This document shows, in pieces, positions 9,265 through 49,673 of a stretch of DNA of 64,000 nt (the first letter of the stretch is position 1; each line of letters begins with the position of its first letter). The position numbers and the translations under genes are program-made. The notes beneath the pieces were generated by a model. It ran no database searches. It saw only the letters and a list, made by a program, of their open reading frames with translations, and was not told where the DNA came from. This DNA is from Pyruvatibacter sp. HU-CL02332 (GTDB lineage: Bacteria; Pseudomonadota; Alphaproteobacteria; CGMCC-115125). The stretch lies in the NCBI RefSeq assembly GCF_040362765.1, contig NZ_BAABWK010000001.1, forward strand, positions 1,527,501 to 1,591,500, given 5' to 3'.

Positions 9265-9453
9265 CGCACCTGACCTCCCGTCTTGATGACAGTTCGCCTC
9301 AACGTCGATGTGACCTTGAGACAAAGGCTACGGGAGCCAGCTTGCACATTCGCTGAAGGGTGCAGTTGCAATTCGTTCAACTTCTAACCATTCCACACAC
9401 CACACGATTGAAATTGTGGTTTCAGCCGCCCTGACGCGGCCGTGTGGCCAGCG

Positions 9454-9469
9454 TTAACAATGCGTTAAC
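9454..9469 (+). promoter_or_regulatory. CtrA-type motif upstream of dapC-ftsK
   Basis: TTAACAATGCGTTAAC is a perfect TTAA-N7-TTAAC match to the CtrA full site. It lies about 100 bp before the chosen start of the dapC-like gene, which forms an operon with ftsK. CtrA controls cell-division genes in several alphaproteobacteria. The remainder of 9265-9566 shows no other feature. Confidence 0.6.
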
Positions 9470-33304: not shown

Positions 33305-33941
33305 GGGCAAGCTCCTCCAGCTTGAGTATGACCCCATCCCCGGCAGTAATACTTGGGGCTTGAGAGGCCTTGATCGTCCAACATTTTGCGGCTTCGGTCA
33401 ATTCCAACACTACATCTCGTCCCTTCATAAAGAGACCAGTGGAATCCTGTGACCAAAAGGGCGCAATCATTTCGAGCAGTTTTGGCAGTGGCGCTACCGC
33501 CCTGGCCGAGATCACGTCCGGGTAGCGGCCCACCTTTTCGACCACACTTTCAGCCGCCTTTTCAACCCGCATTGGCAGCACCCGAACAGGTGCTTTCGTC
33601 TGTGCAATGACGGTCTGCAGGAAGGCACATTTGCGGGTGTCGCTTTCGATCAGAACAACTTCCGCACCCGGATGAGTTTCCATCATCATGATGCCCATCA
33701 CGAGACCCGGAAAGCCGGCCCCGCTGCCAACGTCGAGCCACAGCTTGATGTCGTCAGGGGCGTGGGCGAGCAGCTGGGCTGAATCCGCGAAGTGCCGCTC
33801 CCATGCCGTGTCCACTGTGGAGGGTGCCACGAGGTTGATGGACGCCTGCCATTTGACGAGCAGTGCCTGATAGGTCTCAAGCCTCTCCCGTGTTTCACGT
33901 GAAACAGCGGCCAGGCCGGAAAGGGATTCTACGTCAGTCAC
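33279..33941 (-). CDS. rsmG: 16S rRNA (guanine527-N7)-methyltransferase RsmG
   Basis: A 220-residue SAM-dependent methyltransferase (GidB) that modifies G527 of 16S rRNA. Motifs: KWQASINLVAPST, the SAM motif LDVGSGAGFPGLV and ESDTRKCAFLQTV. GTG at 33941 is preferred because AAGG lies 7 nt upstream; an in-frame GTG at 33959 has none. The VSRET residues near the start are encoded by a perfect parS site (33891-33906). It follows mnmG and overlaps parA, all on the minus strand. Confidence 0.93.
   Translation of the reverse strand: MTDVESLSGLAAVSRETRERLETYQALLVKWQASINLVAPSTVDTAWERHFADSAQLLAHAPDDIKLWLDVGSGAGFPGLVMGIMMMETHPGAEVVLIESDTRKCAFLQTVIAQTKAPVRVLPMRVEKAAESVVEKVGRYPDVISARAVAPLPKLLEMIAPFWSQDSTGLFMKGRDVVLELTEAAKCWTIKASQAPSITAGDGVILKLEELARVRAERAN
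33891..33906. promoter_or_regulatory. parS site inside rsmG
   Basis: TGTTTCACGTGAAACA is a perfect 16-bp parS palindrome, the ParB binding sequence. It encodes Val-Ser-Arg-Glu-Thr in rsmG, a motif known to carry parS in other bacteria. Confidence 0.93.
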
Positions 33942-33951
33942 TTGCAGACCT

Positions 33952-33960
33952 TTATCCACA
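33952..33960 (+). promoter_or_regulatory. Perfect DnaA box between mnmG and rsmG
   Basis: TTATCCACA matches the R-type DnaA box exactly. It lies 45 bp from the parS site in rsmG and just upstream of the rsmG start. Confidence 0.6.
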
Positions 33961-35888: not shown

Positions 35889-35951
35889 GGGAGCGGTGCA
35901 TAGCGCAATAGGGCGGCAAACTAAAGGACGCAGACAGGGGAAAAGCCATCT

Positions 35952-35960
35952 TTATCCACA
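35952..35960 (+). promoter_or_regulatory. Perfect DnaA box upstream of mnmG
   Basis: TTATCCACA, 15 bp from the parS site at 35976, in the mnmE-mnmG gap. Confidence 0.6.
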
Positions 35961-35975
35961 GCTTTGGACTCCATT

Positions 35976-35991
35976 TGTTTCACGTGAAACA
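35976..35991. promoter_or_regulatory. parS site in the mnmE-mnmG gap
   Basis: TGTTTCACGTGAAACA, a second perfect ParB-binding palindrome, in non-coding DNA about 2.1 kb from the first. Confidence 0.95.
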
Positions 35992-36047
35992 TTGAGGCCC
36001 TGTTGCTGTGAATCATCGGCGGTTCCCCATGAAACACCTGTGGGGGG

Positions 36048-36083
36048 TTAATGCCGCGTTAACACCGGTTAACAGGTCTTAAC
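36048..36083 (+). promoter_or_regulatory. Four phased TTAA blocks including a CtrA-type full site
   Basis: TTAA occurs at 36048, 36059, 36069 and 36079. The first pair is TTAA-N7-TTAAC, the CtrA consensus; the next pairs have 6-bp spacers. Three blocks read TTAAC. They lie at the 3' end of mnmE, in the leader of mnmG. Confidence 0.5.
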
Positions 36084-36084
36084 G

Positions 36085-41794: not shown

Positions 41795-42472
41795 CTATTG
41801 GCCGTCCAGCAAACTCTTGTCTGGCGTCCCGGCACCCACGTCGATGAACGCTGTGTTCTCGACCGCCAACAGATGCTGCTTCTCCGGCTGATATGACATC
41901 GGGTCCAGAACGTCGCGCGCCTTGCACCATTGCAGTGTGCCAATCAGGCGCGGCGGACCGTCACCAACAGCAACCGGCAAAAACGTCATTTCAAATGCAT
42001 GACCGGATGCAGGCTCACTGTCACTGTCAGTGCGAACCACCATCACACACCCACAGGGATGGTCACCAACGCCCTGAAAAAGGTTGCGTCGAAAATCACG
42101 CCGCTCCGGCGCCACATAGGCAAGCATGTCCTGGCCGGTCAGATCGACGCCCGAGCTTTCGGTAAGAGCACTGCCCCACAACCGATGCACCAGATCGGGC
42201 CCCTGCCATTCGAGATATCGAACATAGGGTGCAAGAGTCCGCATTTGGGGCGGCGAAATATCTTCTTTGTCGGGAACCGTTTTGTCGCCGCGTATGTACC
42301 ACCAGTGGGCAAGAAACGCGTGAGCCACCGGCGTCAGCCGCACATCCCCGTGGTGACGGGGAACTTCTGACAGGGGAGCGGCGACTTTGGCAGCTGCCGA
42401 GTTGGCAACCTCTGGGCGCAATGCAGAATAGGCCCATCCAGACACGAGAGGCGGGTTGTCTTTTTCACTCAC
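41795..42472 (-). CDS. PAS_5-type (PF07310-like) PAS domain protein 1
   Basis: A 225-residue protein; third in the order of transcription of three tandem paralogs. The PAS core (about 45-190) has MRTLAPYVRYLEWQGPDLV, then WGSALTESSGVDLTGQDML, matching the alphaproteobacterial PAS_5 group, and a C-terminal FIDVGAGTPD tail shared with the others. The start is GTG at 42472, with GAGG 5 nt upstream. There is no kinase, GGDEF or helix-turn-helix domain, so it is a stand-alone sensor of unknown ligand and partner. Confidence 0.8.
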   Translation of the reverse strand: MSEKDNPPLVSGWAYSALRPEVANSAAAKVAAPLSEVPRHHGDVRLTPVAHAFLAHWWYIRGDKTVPDKEDISPPQMRTLAPYVRYLEWQGPDLVHRLWGSALTESSGVDLTGQDMLAYVAPERRDFRRNLFQGVGDHPCGCVMVVRTDSDSEPASGHAFEMTFLPVAVGDGPPRLIGTLQWCKARDVLDPMSYQPEKQHLLAVENTAFIDVGAGTPDKSLLDGQ

Positions 42473-42586
42473 GTGAACCTCTTCCTGAAAGGGGGCCAAA
42501 ACGTCGGTCGAAGCAGCAATTCTGCCCACTTAAGGCACAAATCGTGGAAAGAAACCGTTACTTCGTTGGATGACAGTTGATCGGAC

Positions 42587-43156
42587 TTAGTCCGGAATGC
42601 CATACCCAAGATCAAGGTACCGGAACGAATGGATGACCGTTTTAGGATCGTCCGCCAGCTCAACGCGCTCGCCGGGCACCGAATCCACAAAAGACCCGGG
42701 GCCAATCATACGAGGCTCCCCGTCTTCTCCCGCTGCAACCGGCAATGTCAGAAACTCGAACAATCGCGTCATGCCGGATATGTCGGTGACCCGGCGCTGC
42801 TGAACAAAGCCGCAGGGAACGCGATGCAGGTTCTTCAGGCGTTGGATTTCCACCGGGCGCTCGGCTTCAGGTAAAAAATCGAAGACATTACGGCCAGTCA
42901 GATCCACATTCATCCACTCGGATAGTGCTGTGCCCCAAACTGTGAAGACCACAGCATCCGGCCCGCGCCATCGCATATATCTGACATATGGGAGCAGGCT
43001 GACGAAGTCCGACGGCCGAACGTCTTCCGCAGCCGGGACCGGTGATGATCCACGGACGTCTTTCCAATACGCCAGAAAAGCCTGCGAGCGAAACGAGAGT
43101 GTCGCCTCACCGTTCACGTGGCCGACAAATTCCGGTAGATGATCCGTATGCGCCAT
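42587..43156 (-). CDS. PAS_5-type PAS domain protein 2
   Basis: A 189-residue paralog of its two neighbours and the shortest of the three. Conserved segments: SLLPYVRYMRWRGPDAV, WGTALSEWMNVDLTGRNVF, then PVEIQRLKNLHRVPCGFV, and a C-terminal RYLDLGYGIPD. No output domain is visible. It is 71 bp from PAS protein 3 upstream and about 114 bp before PAS protein 1, all on the minus strand. Function unknown; a common regulon is likely. Confidence 0.8.
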   Translation of the reverse strand: MAHTDHLPEFVGHVNGEATLSFRSQAFLAYWKDVRGSSPVPAAEDVRPSDFVSLLPYVRYMRWRGPDAVVFTVWGTALSEWMNVDLTGRNVFDFLPEAERPVEIQRLKNLHRVPCGFVQQRRVTDISGMTRLFEFLTLPVAAGEDGEPRMIGPGSFVDSVPGERVELADDPKTVIHSFRYLDLGYGIPD

Positions 43157-43227
43157 AGGACGAACCTAGGCCGCAAAGGTCTGCAATCAGTTAATGATCA
43201 AACTAATTTGCACAGGACCTGGAAGTC

Positions 43228-43932
43228 CTAGACCGGAACACCAAAGCCAATATCAATGAAGGCGTGCTCGAGCAGATCCATGGGCTTCCTTGAATCAGCC
43301 ATCCCGTCCCAACGGTCCGGCAACTCACGCATCATCACCGAGCCCAGAATGCGGTCATATCCGACGTTTGCGTCACTGCCATTCGAGACCGCCGCAACGG
43401 GCAGATGAAGCACTTCCAATTCCCGGACGCCGCCGCCTGCAATGTACGACCTCTTGACCGCGACACTTCCACACGGCTGCGCATGCAATTCCCGAAAAGT
43501 GGAAAGCTCACGATCACGCTCTTCCGGCACCATGAGATCAAGCAGGTTCATGCCAGTGAGATCATGGCCGAGCGCCGCGCTCAATGCGCTGCCAAAGACA
43601 CGAATACGCAGGTCTTCTGCGCCTTCCCAGCTCAGATAGCGGGCGTAGGGAAGCAATTCACGGAAGCCTGACGGGCTGATCTGGGAACTGTCGGGCATGG
43701 CGCGTGAGCCGCGGACACCATGCCAGTAGGTCAACATCTCGTTGCCAACATGGGTCAGGGAGATGTCGCCCTGCACCATCGGTAGACCTTCGGTCTGTCC
43801 GGAAAACTCGGTTTTGGTCGCACGCACATAGGATGGATCAAAGGCCGGCGCAGACCAACCAGGCACAACCAACTCATCTCCACCCAAAGGGGTGTTCGCT
43901 CGGATACCGCTCGGCCCGTTGTCCTGAGTCAC
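43228..43932 (-). CDS. PAS_5-type PAS domain protein 3
   Basis: A 234-residue paralog, first in order of transcription. Core: ELLPYARYLSWEGAEDLRI, FGSALSAALGHDLTGMNLL, a Cys-Gly pair (LHAQPCGSV) that recurs in the other two (HPCGCV, RVPCGFV), and the tail FIDIGFGVP. The start is GTG at 43932 without a clear ribosome site. Like its neighbours it lacks an effector domain. Rho lies next downstream in the window orientation but on the same strand, upstream in transcription. Confidence 0.8.
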   Translation of the reverse strand: MTQDNGPSGIRANTPLGGDELVVPGWSAPAFDPSYVRATKTEFSGQTEGLPMVQGDISLTHVGNEMLTYWHGVRGSRAMPDSSQISPSGFRELLPYARYLSWEGAEDLRIRVFGSALSAALGHDLTGMNLLDLMVPEERDRELSTFRELHAQPCGSVAVKRSYIAGGGVRELEVLHLPVAAVSNGSDANVGYDRILGSVMMRELPDRWDGMADSRKPMDLLEHAFIDIGFGVPV

Positions 43933-46218: not shown

Positions 46219-47241
46219 CTAGGCCGCCAGATCAGCGGGACATTTGCCACAGGTTCCCGGGCAGATACGCTTGCCGCCCACTGGCGCCACGCCATCCCCG
46301 GCCCCCAGAACCGCTGCTTTCAGCGCCTCGATATAATGCGGGTTTGTGCCCAGCGCAGGCACCCGCTTGTAGGACACAACGCCCGCTTTTTCTGCCAGTT
46401 CGGCATATTCGATATCAAGCTCTACCAGCGTCTCGGAATGCTCGGACACAAAGGCGATCGGCACAACGACAAGTGACTTGCCCTCTTTGCCCGCCCGCTC
46501 GATTTCATCATCTGTGGATGGTCCGATCCACTCCAGCGGACCGACGCGGCTTTGGTAGCAGGTGACATAATCAAGGTCCGGTTGACCAAGGGCTGAAACC
46601 GTCGCCGCCACCGTCTGCTCGACCTGCCATTGATAGGGATCTCCGCCGTCGACAACCTTCTTCGGCAGCCCATGGGCGGAGAACAAAACCCGGGTGTTGG
46701 GCTCTGACACATAGGACCGGAGCAAATCCGTGTGCGCCGCGACATATATGCTGTCCGTCGGGTAGCAACACACAGTTTTCGTGTGCACCGCAAAATCATG
46801 CGCCCGCGCCTGCTTCTCCCAATCCAGAACCGACGATCCCGTGGTCGTGGTCGAGAACTGCGGATAAAGCGGCAGCAGCGTCACTTCATCCGGCCCAAAT
46901 GCTTTCAGTTCCGCAATCACCTCAGCCGCAAACGGATGCCAGTAGCGCATGGCAATCACGACCTTGAAGTCATCCGCGGGATTTTCAGCTTTCAGGGCCG
47001 TTTCCAGCGCAGTTGCCTGAGCCTGGGTCAGCTCCAAAAGCGGCGACTTTCCGCCGATATGACCGTAGATTTCCTGGGCAACCGGCGCCCGGCGCGTGGA
47101 AATCAGCTTGGCCACCAGCCACCGCAAAGGCTGCGGCAGACCAATAATGGCCTTGTCGCTGAACAGGTTGAACAAGAACGGCTGCACGGACGCCAGCTGG
47201 TCCGGTCCACCCAGATTGAAGAGAACAACAGCCCGTTTCAT
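46219..47241 (-). CDS. hemH: Ferrochelatase
   Basis: A 340-residue enzyme inserting iron into protoporphyrin IX. Catalytic block: VLFSAHGLPKKVVDGGDPY (active-site His), with AFVSEHSETLVELDIEY later. The C-terminal CPGTCGKC motif resembles the cysteines that bind a [2Fe-2S] cluster in ferrochelatases of some bacteria such as Caulobacter; cluster presence here is inferred. Its ATG overlaps the hemE stop by 4 bp (ATGA), so the two are translationally coupled. Confidence 0.95.
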   Translation of the reverse strand: MKRAVVLFNLGGPDQLASVQPFLFNLFSDKAIIGLPQPLRWLVAKLISTRRAPVAQEIYGHIGGKSPLLELTQAQATALETALKAENPADDFKVVIAMRYWHPFAAEVIAELKAFGPDEVTLLPLYPQFSTTTTGSSVLDWEKQARAHDFAVHTKTVCCYPTDSIYVAAHTDLLRSYVSEPNTRVLFSAHGLPKKVVDGGDPYQWQVEQTVAATVSALGQPDLDYVTCYQSRVGPLEWIGPSTDDEIERAGKEGKSLVVVPIAFVSEHSETLVELDIEYAELAEKAGVVSYKRVPALGTNPHYIEALKAAVLGAGDGVAPVGGKRICPGTCGKCPADLAA

Positions 47242-48299
47242 CGATTGCGCACCCTTTCAACGACCTGACCCACATGTTCCGGCGGTGTCTGCGGCACAAT
47301 CCCGTGGCCGAGATTGAACACAAACGGCTTGCCGTCAAACGCCTCAATAATTGTATCCACCGCCTTCAGCATCTTGTCGCCACCGGCCACCAAAAGCAGC
47401 GGATCAAGATTGCCCTGGCAGACTGTCTTGTCGCCAAGTTCTGATACCGCCCATGACAAGGGAACCGATGGATCAAGCCCCACCGCATCAACCCCGGTCT
47501 CCGCCACATAGCGCGGCAGCAAGGGTCCTGCCCCTTTCGGGAAGCCGATGATGGGCACCGTCACGCCAAGCGCTCTGAGCCGCTCAACCAGTGCCTTGGT
47601 GGGGGCAATGGACCAGCGGGCGAACTCCTCCTCCGGCAAGACACCCGACCAGGTATCAAACAGCTGCAAGATGTCAGCCCCCGCCTGCACCTGCCGCAGC
47701 AAATATTGCGCGGTAGATTCAACGAGCACATCCATCAGCGCCTCAAACGCCTCGCGCTGCTGATAGGCAAACAACCGCGCCGGCGCTTGATCGGGGGTGC
47801 CGCGCCCGGCAATCATGTAGGTCGCAACCGTCCAGGGCGATCCGGCAAAGCCGATGAGATCTGTTTCAATCGGCAGGGACGACCGCAGAATGGATACCGT
47901 CTCATAGATGGACGAGAGCGCGTCCGCTGCGCTGTCCACATCAAGCGCCGCGATCGCTTTGCCGTCTTCGAGAGGCTCAAGACGCGGACCTTCACCAGTT
48001 TCAAACCAGAGCTTTTGGCCAAGCGCCTGGGGGATAAGCAGAATGTCCGCAAACAGGATCGACGCATCAAAGCCATAGCGGCGGATCGGCTGAAGTGTCA
48101 CTTCGCTGGCAAGCTTTGGATCAAAGCACAGGTCAAGAAACCCACCCGCCTTCTCGCGTGTTTCCCGATACTCAGGAAGGTACCGCCCGGCCTGACGCAT
48201 GAGCCATACGGGAGGAGGTGACATCACCTCTCCCTTGATAGCCCTTAGAAGCCTGCCGTCTGGTCGAGACGCTTGAGAAGTCTTTATGTCGCTCGGCAC
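47238..48299 (-). CDS. hemE: Uroporphyrinogen decarboxylase
   Basis: A 353-residue enzyme that decarboxylates uroporphyrinogen III to coproporphyrinogen III. Signatures: PPVWLMRQAGRYLPEYRE at the N-terminus, GFAGSPWTVATYMIAG and NLGHGIVPQTPPEHV. The start codon is GTG at 48299, with GGAAGAG 4 nt before it. In Caulobacter the origin of replication adjoins hemE, and the same gene pair (hemE and ppsR) borders the gap here. First gene of hemE-hemH-hemJ. Confidence 0.96.
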   Translation of the reverse strand: MPSDIKTSQASRPDGRLLRAIKGEVMSPPPVWLMRQAGRYLPEYRETREKAGGFLDLCFDPKLASEVTLQPIRRYGFDASILFADILLIPQALGQKLWFETGEGPRLEPLEDGKAIAALDVDSAADALSSIYETVSILRSSLPIETDLIGFAGSPWTVATYMIAGRGTPDQAPARLFAYQQREAFEALMDVLVESTAQYLLRQVQAGADILQLFDTWSGVLPEEEFARWSIAPTKALVERLRALGVTVPIIGFPKGAGPLLPRYVAETGVDAVGLDPSVPLSWAVSELGDKTVCQGNLDPLLLVAGGDKMLKAVDTIIEAFDGKPFVFNLGHGIVPQTPPEHVGQVVERVRNR

Positions 48300-48567
48300 G
48301 TCACTCTTCCAAACTATGATTCTTATCTAAATAGATGAGGATAGTAGGGGGCAGGGAAAGCGGGGATTGTGGCGCTGTCCCAGTCTCACCCAGAGATATA
48401 CTCCGGTTCGCACGTCGACCCATAGGCTTTGCAGAAAAGACCTGTGGGCAAATGCACCAATGCCAGTGACAGTAGGCGAAAGGATAACGGGGAAAACAGG
48501 ATCAAGTGACGCAGGCGCTCCGACTTACCCCCATAATCCCCGTGTTCAGATCAAACTCTGGCCGGGC

Positions 48568-48576
48568 TCATCCACA
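48568..48576 (+). promoter_or_regulatory. One-mismatch DnaA box in the origin region
   Basis: TCATCCACA, differing from TTATCCACA at one base, 18 bp from the CtrA-type site. Confidence 0.5.
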
Positions 48577-48593
48577 GACTCATGGATTTGCCG

Positions 48594-48609
48594 TTAACAC
48601 TTCATTAAC
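48594..48609 (+). promoter_or_regulatory. CtrA-type full site in the origin region
   Basis: TTAA-CACTTCA-TTAAC fits the CtrA consensus exactly. In Caulobacter CtrA binds origin sites of this form and silences replication in swarmer cells. Confidence 0.65.
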
Positions 48610-48672
48610 CCTTGTGATTCACAGGCCCCCCTGTCGAAAGGCGAATCTATCCCCATAAACAGGACATCACAC

Positions 48673-48828
48673 ATGGCTTATCCCGGAGCCCGATTGGACC
48701 TGTATGAGCCTGCTGACGGCCAGGTCATGGCTGTCGCAACCGCGCCAAAAAATGCCGCGCCATTGCCAGCCAAGCGAGAGAGCGGTAACCACGACTGTCT
48801 CTTGTCCTCCAAAGGCTCACCCGCGTGA
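48673..48828 (+). CDS. Small ORF overlapping ppsR (51 residues)
   Basis: An ATG at 48673 with AGGA 8 nt upstream opens a 51-codon frame that ends at 48828, overlapping the GTG start of ppsR as GTGA. The peptide begins MAYPGARLDLYEPADG and has no known domain. The ribosome site and the 4-bp overlap suggest translation coupled to ppsR, but the length leaves chance possible. It lies in the origin gap. Confidence 0.45.
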   Translation: MAYPGARLDLYEPADGQVMAVATAPKNAAPLPAKRESGNHDCLLSSKGSPA

Positions 48829-49673
48829 CTGCACCCACTGCCCCTAGCGACAGCAAGTCGTTCTTTCATCTGCATCTCGTGTCTGATTCAACAGGCGAGA
48901 CGTTGAATGCTGTGGCGAAGGCAGCCGTTGCCCAGTTCGAGATGGTGCATCCGGTGGAGCACATCTATGCGCTTGTCCGCGGGCCGCGCCAGCTGGACCG
49001 GGTTCTGCGCCAGATTGAATCCTCTCCCGGCATCGTCATGTTCACCATGGTCAACGACAAGCTGCGTCGGGAACTGGAGACCCGATGCCGCGAGCTGCAG
49101 ATCCCCTGCATTGCCGTTCTTGATCCGGTTATGCAGGTGTTGGGTGCCTATCTTGGAACCGAGCGCACGGAAAAGCCGGGGTCGCAGCACACCCTTGATG
49201 CTGAATATTTCAGCCGCATCGAAGCCCTGAACTACACCATGGCCCATGATGACGGCCAGAACCTGGACAACCTCGAAGAAGCCGACATCGTATTGGTAGG
49301 TGTCAGCCGCACATCGAAAACACCAACCTGCATGTATCTGGCAAACCGAGGCATCAAGGCTGCCAACTACCCGCTGGTGCCAGAGGTCCCTGTCCCACCG
49401 CAGATTGAAGCACTGGAGTCGCCTTTGGTCGTCGGCCTGGTCGCCTCACCGGAACGGCTGATGCAGATCCGCCGCCAGCGTCTTTTGTCTCTCAAGGAAG
49501 ATTCGCAGACGGACTATGTCGACCTTGATCTCATCCGCAGCGAAGTAACCGCCGCACGCAGGCTCTATGCCCGCCACAGCTGGCCCATCATCGATGTCAG
49601 CCGCCGCTCCATCGAAGAAACAGCCGCCGCCATTCTCAATCTACACACCGAACGCCTGGCCCCATCTGACTAG
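48825..49673 (+). CDS. ppsR: Kinase/pyrophosphorylase PpsR (DUF299 family)
   Basis: A 282-residue PEP synthase/PPDK regulatory protein with both kinase and pyrophosphorylase activity. Signature GVSRTSKTPTCMYLANRG (P-loop-like, about 157-174) and the N-terminal HLHLVSDSTGETLNAVAKAA. It starts at GTG 48825. It is the origin-side neighbour in alphaproteobacteria. It precedes maf-aroE-coaE-dnaQ on the same strand, 49 bp from maf. Confidence 0.93.
   Translation: MTAPTAPSDSKSFFHLHLVSDSTGETLNAVAKAAVAQFEMVHPVEHIYALVRGPRQLDRVLRQIESSPGIVMFTMVNDKLRRELETRCRELQIPCIAVLDPVMQVLGAYLGTERTEKPGSQHTLDAEYFSRIEALNYTMAHDDGQNLDNLEEADIVLVGVSRTSKTPTCMYLANRGIKAANYPLVPEVPVPPQIEALESPLVVGLVASPERLMQIRRQRLLSLKEDSQTDYVDLDLIRSEVTAARRLYARHSWPIIDVSRRSIEETAAAILNLHTERLAPSD

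Follow-up and report, generated by a model that had tools for sequence, protein, structure and literature searches.

A very probable chromosomal replication origin with a predicted CtrA/DnaA site pair between hemE and ppsR in Pyruvatibacter sp. HU-CL02332

Our results place the chromosomal replication origin of Pyruvatibacter sp. HU-CL02332 very probably in the intergenic segment between hemE and ppsR. An origin that DnaA opens and CtrA holds back is very likely the best explanation of the locus as a whole, a reading that combines the computed gene setting, strand switch, conserved elements and regulator genes with DnaA and CtrA binding, unwinding and repression that we infer from them. The window, that is, the whole stretch of 64,000 nucleotides that was analysed, is C1:1527501-1591500 of a genome in three contigs (3.445 Mb). 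Most scans used the contiguous 424 kb around the window as background, and conservation within the genus was read from an alignment of four genomes, namely this genome and the congeners G001, G002 and G003. Published work is cited from excerpts of the papers named.

48300-48824, no strand assigned: candidate oriC, the intergenic hemE/ppsR segment, from flanks, synteny, k-mer switch and unwinding matrix
47238-48299, minus strand: hemE, left boundary gene (TIGR01464, 402 bits, over cut-off)
48825-49673, plus strand: ppsR (COG1806/DUF299 type), right boundary gene (NF003742, 349 bits, over cut-off)

The initial annotation of this DNA had proposed an origin here from the Caulobacter-like setting between hemE and ppsR. 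The setting is borne out by profile matches over the cut-off for both genes, and the origin identity by the strand-switch analysis, the hemE-ppsR synteny and a blind motif scan. hemE lies beside ppsR in 19 of 22 loci, in 61 of 80 named loci and in 90 of 105 loci (the 105 include the 22), some of the misses being contig ends. The genome encodes DnaA, CtrA (427.6 bits, over the cut-off), GcrA (186.8 bits) and a CcrM candidate with a RAMA domain of the CcrM type. The nearest named relatives by PpsR belong to Parvibaculum, in a comparison from which records very near this genome may be missing. A small open reading frame at 48673-48828 was rejected as a gene, having no Pfam match and a start that is not kept in the aligned G002 and G001. 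Elsewhere in the window, three similar minus-strand proteins that share a PYxRYLxWxG-like stretch, and may be PAS_5-type paralogues, lie in a row at 41795-43932.

Strand composition places the switch between the replication arms at this locus when it is read with scores trained far from it. Because raw GC skew and a first antisymmetric k-mer score had their minima elsewhere (for the latter a raw minimum at window 226-228 kb, with a slope break near 50 kb), strand-specific k-mer scores were learned from two distant regions, C1 0-1.31 Mb versus 1.8-2.21 Mb, and used to scan the contiguous 424 kb lying between them. All three word lengths (k=4, 5 and 6) give a change point at window 50001; its bootstrap quartiles are 48-52 kb, and the bootstrap 95% ranges are 30-60, 28-68 and 20-72 kb, respectively. 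The change point is at window 58001 for GC skew and at window -31999, 80 kb off, for TA skew. The octamer GGGCAGGG, which presumably resembles FtsK-orienting sequences, is mostly reverse on the left, mostly forward on the right and mixed at window 39.7-63.2 kb. Its cumulative minimum lies at window 54.3-63.2 kb, with reverse copies up to 54.3 kb and one forward copy at 48.3 kb among them, and its exceptions in the 424 kb are three forward copies on the left (1446635, 1481521 and 1493628) and three reverse copies on the right. The congener G003, a single contig of 3.416 Mb with ppsR at 3.295 Mb, has 114 forward copies; of the first 100 listed, 95 fall within 0-1.37 Mb.

The test by GC-skew minimum that had been suggested for this locus fails in its plain form, the raw cumulative minimum over the 424 kb lying near C1:1.757 Mb, about 180 kb to the right. 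We attribute this displacement to a difference between the arms, one of which has a strong skew and the other a skew close to zero; used by itself, the plain test would have pointed to the wrong place. Sampled GC skew runs at about -0.07 over C1 0-1.3 Mb and mostly at about -0.03 over 1.4-1.7 Mb, and scatters around zero beyond. The one-sided skew (left arm about -0.07, right arm near zero) is seen on C1 and C2, and samples of G003 look alike. A GC-skew minimum is described as a supporting criterion, and not all criteria are expected in every genome (excerpt of PMC1914354). One place outside the window was considered as an origin and rejected. The stretch C1:1964471-1964591 (L073 7471-7591), where two exact DnaA boxes of opposite orientation accompany a symmetric CtrA site, seemed a rival because the skew nears zero on that side, but it lies immediately before gcrA and some 390 kb away from the k-mer switch. 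What looked like a low-GC stretch at C1:900001 was masked sequence read as N.

The hemE-side end of the segment holds the candidate unwinding region.

48307-48336, no strand assigned: AT-rich candidate unwinding element, 7 G+C in 30 by base count
48324-48367, plus strand: BUS-like unwinding module, 16.1 bits with a matrix trained on other origin segments
48342-48347: TAGTAG inside the unwinding module, two trios read 3'-GAT-5'
48352-48360: place of the proximal DnaA box in the unwinding module, CAGGGAAAG, degenerate here

An AT-rich stretch adjoining hemE had been noted before and is confirmed by the 30-mer at 48307 (7 G+C), which only 0.03% of the 30-mers in the 424 kb equal or beat. The module was found with a 44-bp matrix obtained by expectation maximisation on 72 non-congener origin segments; its seed was picked after inspecting relatives' sequences, and of 12 random seeds the best reached a likelihood nearly as high (553.8 vs 558.7). 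On both strands of the 424 kb, the match at window 48324 ranks second with 16.1 bits; the top match, C1:1652371 (17.6 bits), lies within long open frames and is probably coding. Within the window, 48324 is the best of 121 tiles, the next scoring 11.5, and in the congener G001 the matrix prefers a different place. For 67 test segments that are neither training segments nor near-copies of them, the median score is 18.3 forward, 1.6 reverse and 3.8 shuffled; 48 of the 67 beat all 20 of their own shuffles, in 58 the module site is no more than 130 bp from hemE, and 31 contain trinucleotide runs, versus 6.0. In many relatives the order from the hemE end is AT-rich DNA, then TAG, TTG or TGG repeats, then a CCTGTGGATAACGGGGAT-like sequence.

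This end of the segment appears to resemble a class-wide unwinding module, as judged from sequence. Like the basal unwinding system (excerpt of PMC8287927), it has, in this order, a box place, a GC-rich spacer, TAG repeats (3'-GAT-5') and AT-rich DNA. It differs from that system in this genus by a degenerate proximal box and mostly degenerate trios, and several relatives carry TTG or TGG repeats without the middle adenine. Strict membership would call for a recognisable DnaA box and three or more trios with a middle A. The proximal box of the genus reads CAGGGAAAG in this genome and CAGGGATAA in G001 and G002, with two adjacent TAG trios; CGGGGAT also lies within the module at 48324-48367. In our model, DnaA would bind a set of weak, degenerate boxes and open the AT-rich element at the hemE end, and the trinucleotide repeats adjoining that element may aid the opening.

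Two of the predicted DnaA boxes of the segment are the following.

48568-48576, plus strand: near-consensus DnaA box of the initial annotation, TCATCCACA, one mismatch, 3 of 9 columns invariant in the genus
48443-48451, minus strand: DnaA-like box TTGCCCACA, two mismatches, 8 of 9 columns invariant in the genus

No exact DnaA box occurs in segment 48300-48824. The expectation of a single near-consensus box among degenerate ones was right, in that one box has at most one mismatch and seven have at most two. The former, TCATCCACA, is not significant alone (shuffle mean 0.10, reached by 9.7%). The seven exceed a shuffle mean of 1.22, are reached by 0 of 1,000 shuffles and make the segment the joint densest 525-bp stretch of the 424 kb, tied with C1:1661018 (7). 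A DnaA-box cluster is therefore found here in degenerate form only. Conservation in the genus falls on another site than TCATCCACA, of whose 9 columns 3 are invariant versus 9 of 9 for TGATTCACA.

48593-48609, no strand assigned: symmetric CtrA site GTTAACACTTCATTAAC (GTTAAN7TTAAC), present in 4 of 4 genus genomes
48615-48623, plus strand: TGATTCACA, DnaA-like, resembling the Caulobacter G-box, invariant in 4 of 4 genus genomes

The perfect TTAA-N7-TTAAC reported earlier is found as matches at 48594-48609 (plus strand) and 48593-48608 (minus strand), which form one symmetric site; such a pair of strand matches in the segment is reached by 0 of 1,000 dinucleotide shuffles. Its neighbouring near-consensus DnaA box is likewise there, 17 bp from the CtrA site (18 bp in the initial annotation). 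TGATTCACA, which contains GATTC at 48616-48620, lies 5 bp from the CtrA site on its other side. The most conserved 31 bp of the genus alignment start at 48590 (28 invariant columns versus a mean of 11.8) and hold the CtrA site, with 16 of 17 columns invariant, and most of TGATTCACA, with 9 of 9. The origin segment of an uncultured Caulobacter (L185) has the same order, a CtrA site followed 3 bp later by TGATCCACA, the Caulobacter G-box sequence. A T-to-G change is the mark of Caulobacter G-boxes, which are located by or over CtrA sites (excerpt of PMC4468827), and TGATTCACA carries the change typical of them.

Because a G-box-like TGATTCACA lies beside the CtrA site, as in L185, we read this core as a place where CtrA would compete with DnaA, as proposed for the C. 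crescentus origin Cori, and on the motifs and their conservation such competition at the origin seems likely. Phosphorylated CtrA would occupy the single symmetric site at 48593-48609, keep DnaA off the adjacent TGATTCACA by steric overlap, as proposed for the Caulobacter origin, and hold initiation back in non-replicating cells or under stress. The joint control by CtrA and DnaA that had been predicted thus stands as architecture, in the conserved pair of CtrA site and TGATTCACA and in the genes for CtrA, GcrA, DnaA and a CcrM candidate, and the control itself is our interpretation of that architecture. In C. crescentus, the replication programme was only slightly disturbed in the laboratory when CtrA could no longer bind any of the five Cori sites, but the loss mattered under nutrient and antibiotic stress (excerpt of PMC4468827), and for this reason the effect of CtrA here may be conditional. 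CtrA-like sites also occur in the predicted origin of a bacterium without CtrA (excerpt of PMC10225481), so that motif matches alone can mislead.

An alternative that we consider unlikely accepts the segment as the origin and takes the CtrA site mainly as a promoter element for ppsR-maf-aroE-coaE-dnaQ or for a short transcript. CtrA works at many Caulobacter promoters (excerpt of PMC7200025), promoter activation has also been discussed for Cori, and the mild laboratory effect of losing CtrA binding there fits such a role (excerpt of PMC4468827). Against it, the site ends 216 bp before the ppsR start and abuts the invariant TGATTCACA, and a consensus scan for sites of the sigma-70 type found a single one, at 48293-48320, upstream of the CtrA site, and none downstream.

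A further proposal concerns methylation of the GANTC sites, of which the segment has four, including the GATTC within TGATTCACA.

48318-48322, no strand assigned: GATTC, candidate CcrM site in the AT-rich element, invariant in 4 of 4 genus genomes
48577-48581, no strand assigned: GACTC, candidate CcrM site, invariant in 4 of 4 genus genomes
48643-48647, no strand assigned: GAATC, the fourth GANTC, not conserved in the genus

Four sites are not above the segment's own shuffles (mean 2.30, reached by 20%). GANTC is depleted in the 424 kb, with 519 seen versus 1541 expected from base composition, seven control patterns ranging from 715 to 2445. The initial annotation had predicted CcrM control from these sites; the sites are present, and the case for control by CcrM is weak, in view of the Caulobacter reports and of GANTC sites that do not track ccrM. 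Gating of initiation or unwinding by CcrM methylation of GANTC would account for the invariance of three of the four sites in the genus and for the excess of GANTC in the unwinding element of relatives (42 of 70 versus 14.0 in shuffles, maximum 25, in a set that includes congeners; 18 of 58 versus 7.0, maximum 14, with near-copies cleared), and over-expression of CcrM leads to extra chromosome copies in C. crescentus (cited in PMC3973325, excerpt). We nevertheless regard it as improbable. GANTC lies at the unwinding element in 28 of 77 genomes with ccrM and in 3 of 11 without (p=0.74), or, with the element defined by lowest GC, in 32 of 77 and 2 of 11 (p=0.19), both comparisons having low power with 11 negatives. 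In addition, excerpts of the respective papers report that CcrM is not required for initiation control in C. crescentus (PMC3973325) and that the DnaA-dependent ori1 of A. tumefaciens was not obviously affected when CcrM was depleted (PMC11514494). A dependence of the GANTC in the unwinding element on ccrM is hence unsupported, with no link to ccrM presence among 77 genomes with the gene and 11 without. The count left out 15 of the 105 loci, which have no hemE in the examined stretch (some through contig-end cuts), together with G001 and G002, which were outside the RAMA search, and G054, where a contig end coincides with the start of the ppsR match; the genomes counted as ccrM-negative, 11 in all, come from those absent among 110 RAMA matches. 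GANTC sites in the C. crescentus origin were already known (excerpt of PMC3973325). The over-represented GANTC often stands in a AAGANTCTT-like sequence, and AAGANTCTT-like palindromes with a variable N recur in the AT-rich origin end of relatives' hemE-ppsR segments, again without tracking ccrM.

A second intergenic region in the window, between mnmG and mnmE, has a similar set of sites.

35889-36084, no strand assigned: sister cassette in the mnmG-mnmE gap, from motif scans and genus comparison
35952-35960: exact DnaA box TTATCCACA
35977-35990: parS GTTTCACGTGAAAC
36007-36015, minus strand: TGATTCACA
36047-36063: symmetric CtrA site

That this gap is the real origin and the hemE-ppsR segment a relic or regulatory region is very improbable: TTATCCACA, parS and the CtrA site do occur together in 3 of 3 genus genomes with data, and the gap lies inside the bootstrap 95% ranges of the k-mer switch, but it lies outside the 48-52 kb quartiles, scores 7.7 with the unwinding-module matrix versus 16.1 at the hemE-ppsR segment, where the module recurs across the class, and among 16 non-congener gaps parS is kept in 12, the DnaA box in one and the CtrA site in none. 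The gap was accordingly rejected as an origin and is better read as the centromere and promoter region of mnmG-rsmG-parA-parB. A second perfect parS (GTTTCACGTGAAAC) lies inside rsmG at 33892-33905, with an exact DnaA box about 46 bp away, at 33952.

With the origin placed at hemE-ppsR, the distribution of symmetric CtrA sites over the genome can be considered. There are four in 3.445 Mb: at the origin, in the parS gap, at 9453 before a dapC-like and an ftsK-like gene, and before gcrA. Because the reversed pattern occurs twice in the same genome, their number is unremarkable; what stands out is their placement, three of the four lying within the 64-kb window (P=2.5e-5 for at least three under uniform placement, computed after seeing them). 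All three genus genomes with data retain the CtrA half-sites of the mnmG-mnmE gap around a changed spacer, and two of the three have TGATTCACA there, G001 having TGATTCACG. In the 424 kb, TGATTCACA occurs three times, two of them at the origin and the mnmG-mnmE gap, 12 kb apart. The site at 9453-9469 lies at the start of the dapC-like gene, which is followed by the ftsK-like gene (best family matches both below curated cut-offs); it has the same spacer in G003 and is absent among the three sites of G001. The site before gcrA is also found in G001 and G002, and none of the four sites of G003 is at gcrA. One symmetric CtrA site of G002 is near a contig end.

Since both origin and centromere carry a symmetric CtrA site and TGATTCACA, we speculate, from the motifs and with considerable doubt, that one CtrA/DnaA switch might operate at both in this genus. 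If this is true, initiation and segregation (parS, mnmG-rsmG-parA-parB) would be licensed jointly once CtrA is released, and the affinity of DnaA for the GANTC-bearing TGATTCACA could be tuned by methylation after replication. DnaA action at parS has already been reported in Caulobacter (excerpt of PMC6399470), and relative to this the new step would be the CtrA part and the GANTC-bearing box.

The segment looks like an origin of a known kind, hemE-ppsR with CtrA, and what is new is its occurrence in a lineage near Parvibaculum. With Cori of C. crescentus (hemE-CC0001), which was mapped in the same hemE/ppsR-type setting (excerpt of PMC1914354), it shares the flanking genes, the AT-rich end, weak DnaA boxes, GANTC sites, a CtrA site adjoining a G-box-like predicted DnaA site, and a parS at some distance, about 12 kb here and 8 kb in C. 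crescentus (excerpt of PMC6399470). It differs in having one TTAAN7TTAAC site where Cori has five CtrA sites, TGATTCACA in place of the G-box, and, unlike Cori, no match to the IHF consensus, either WATCAANNNNTTR or WATCAN5WTR, in segment 48300-48824. The origins of Rickettsia and Wolbachia, identified by boundary genes and by CtrA, DnaA and IHF sites and partly confirmed by experiment in R. prowazekii (excerpt of PMC1914354), share the hemE boundary and the kind of evidence used; the strand-switch test and the within-genus comparison are added here, and the IHF consensus was not found here. In Hyphomonas neptunium, too, CtrA is at or next to the origin outside Caulobacter (excerpt of PMC7200025), in a different lineage and by a ChIP-seq peak, whereas the site here is predicted from sequence. 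Among the titles and abstract starts listed by searches of open-licence literature, none names a CtrA-bound origin in Parvibaculum or its kin or the GANTC context of the unwinding element, which is no proof of absence.

According to the excerpt of a 2015 review, CtrA sites are found at Caulobacter origins and possibly those of Rickettsia and not at other origins (PMC4468827), and a 2020 ChIP study adds Hyphomonas to the CtrA-marked origins (excerpt of PMC7200025). Perfect CtrA sites occur in 22 of 144 distinct hemE-ppsR segments versus 0.92 by dinucleotide shuffles; three of the 22 are from this genus, and several others are from Caulobacterales, where they are expected. Segments of Alsobacter, Methylobacterium and Enterovirga (L180, L190, L209, L219 and L227) are among those with such sites. 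Judged by the 22 of 144, CtrA at origins would seem more frequent than the 2015 review has it, and control of initiation by CtrA may have a broader distribution, or have been regained more often, than that review supposes. Finally, for alphaproteobacterial genomes with a misleading GC skew and DnaA boxes too degenerate to guide the search, the class-wide unwinding module provides a means of finding the origin.
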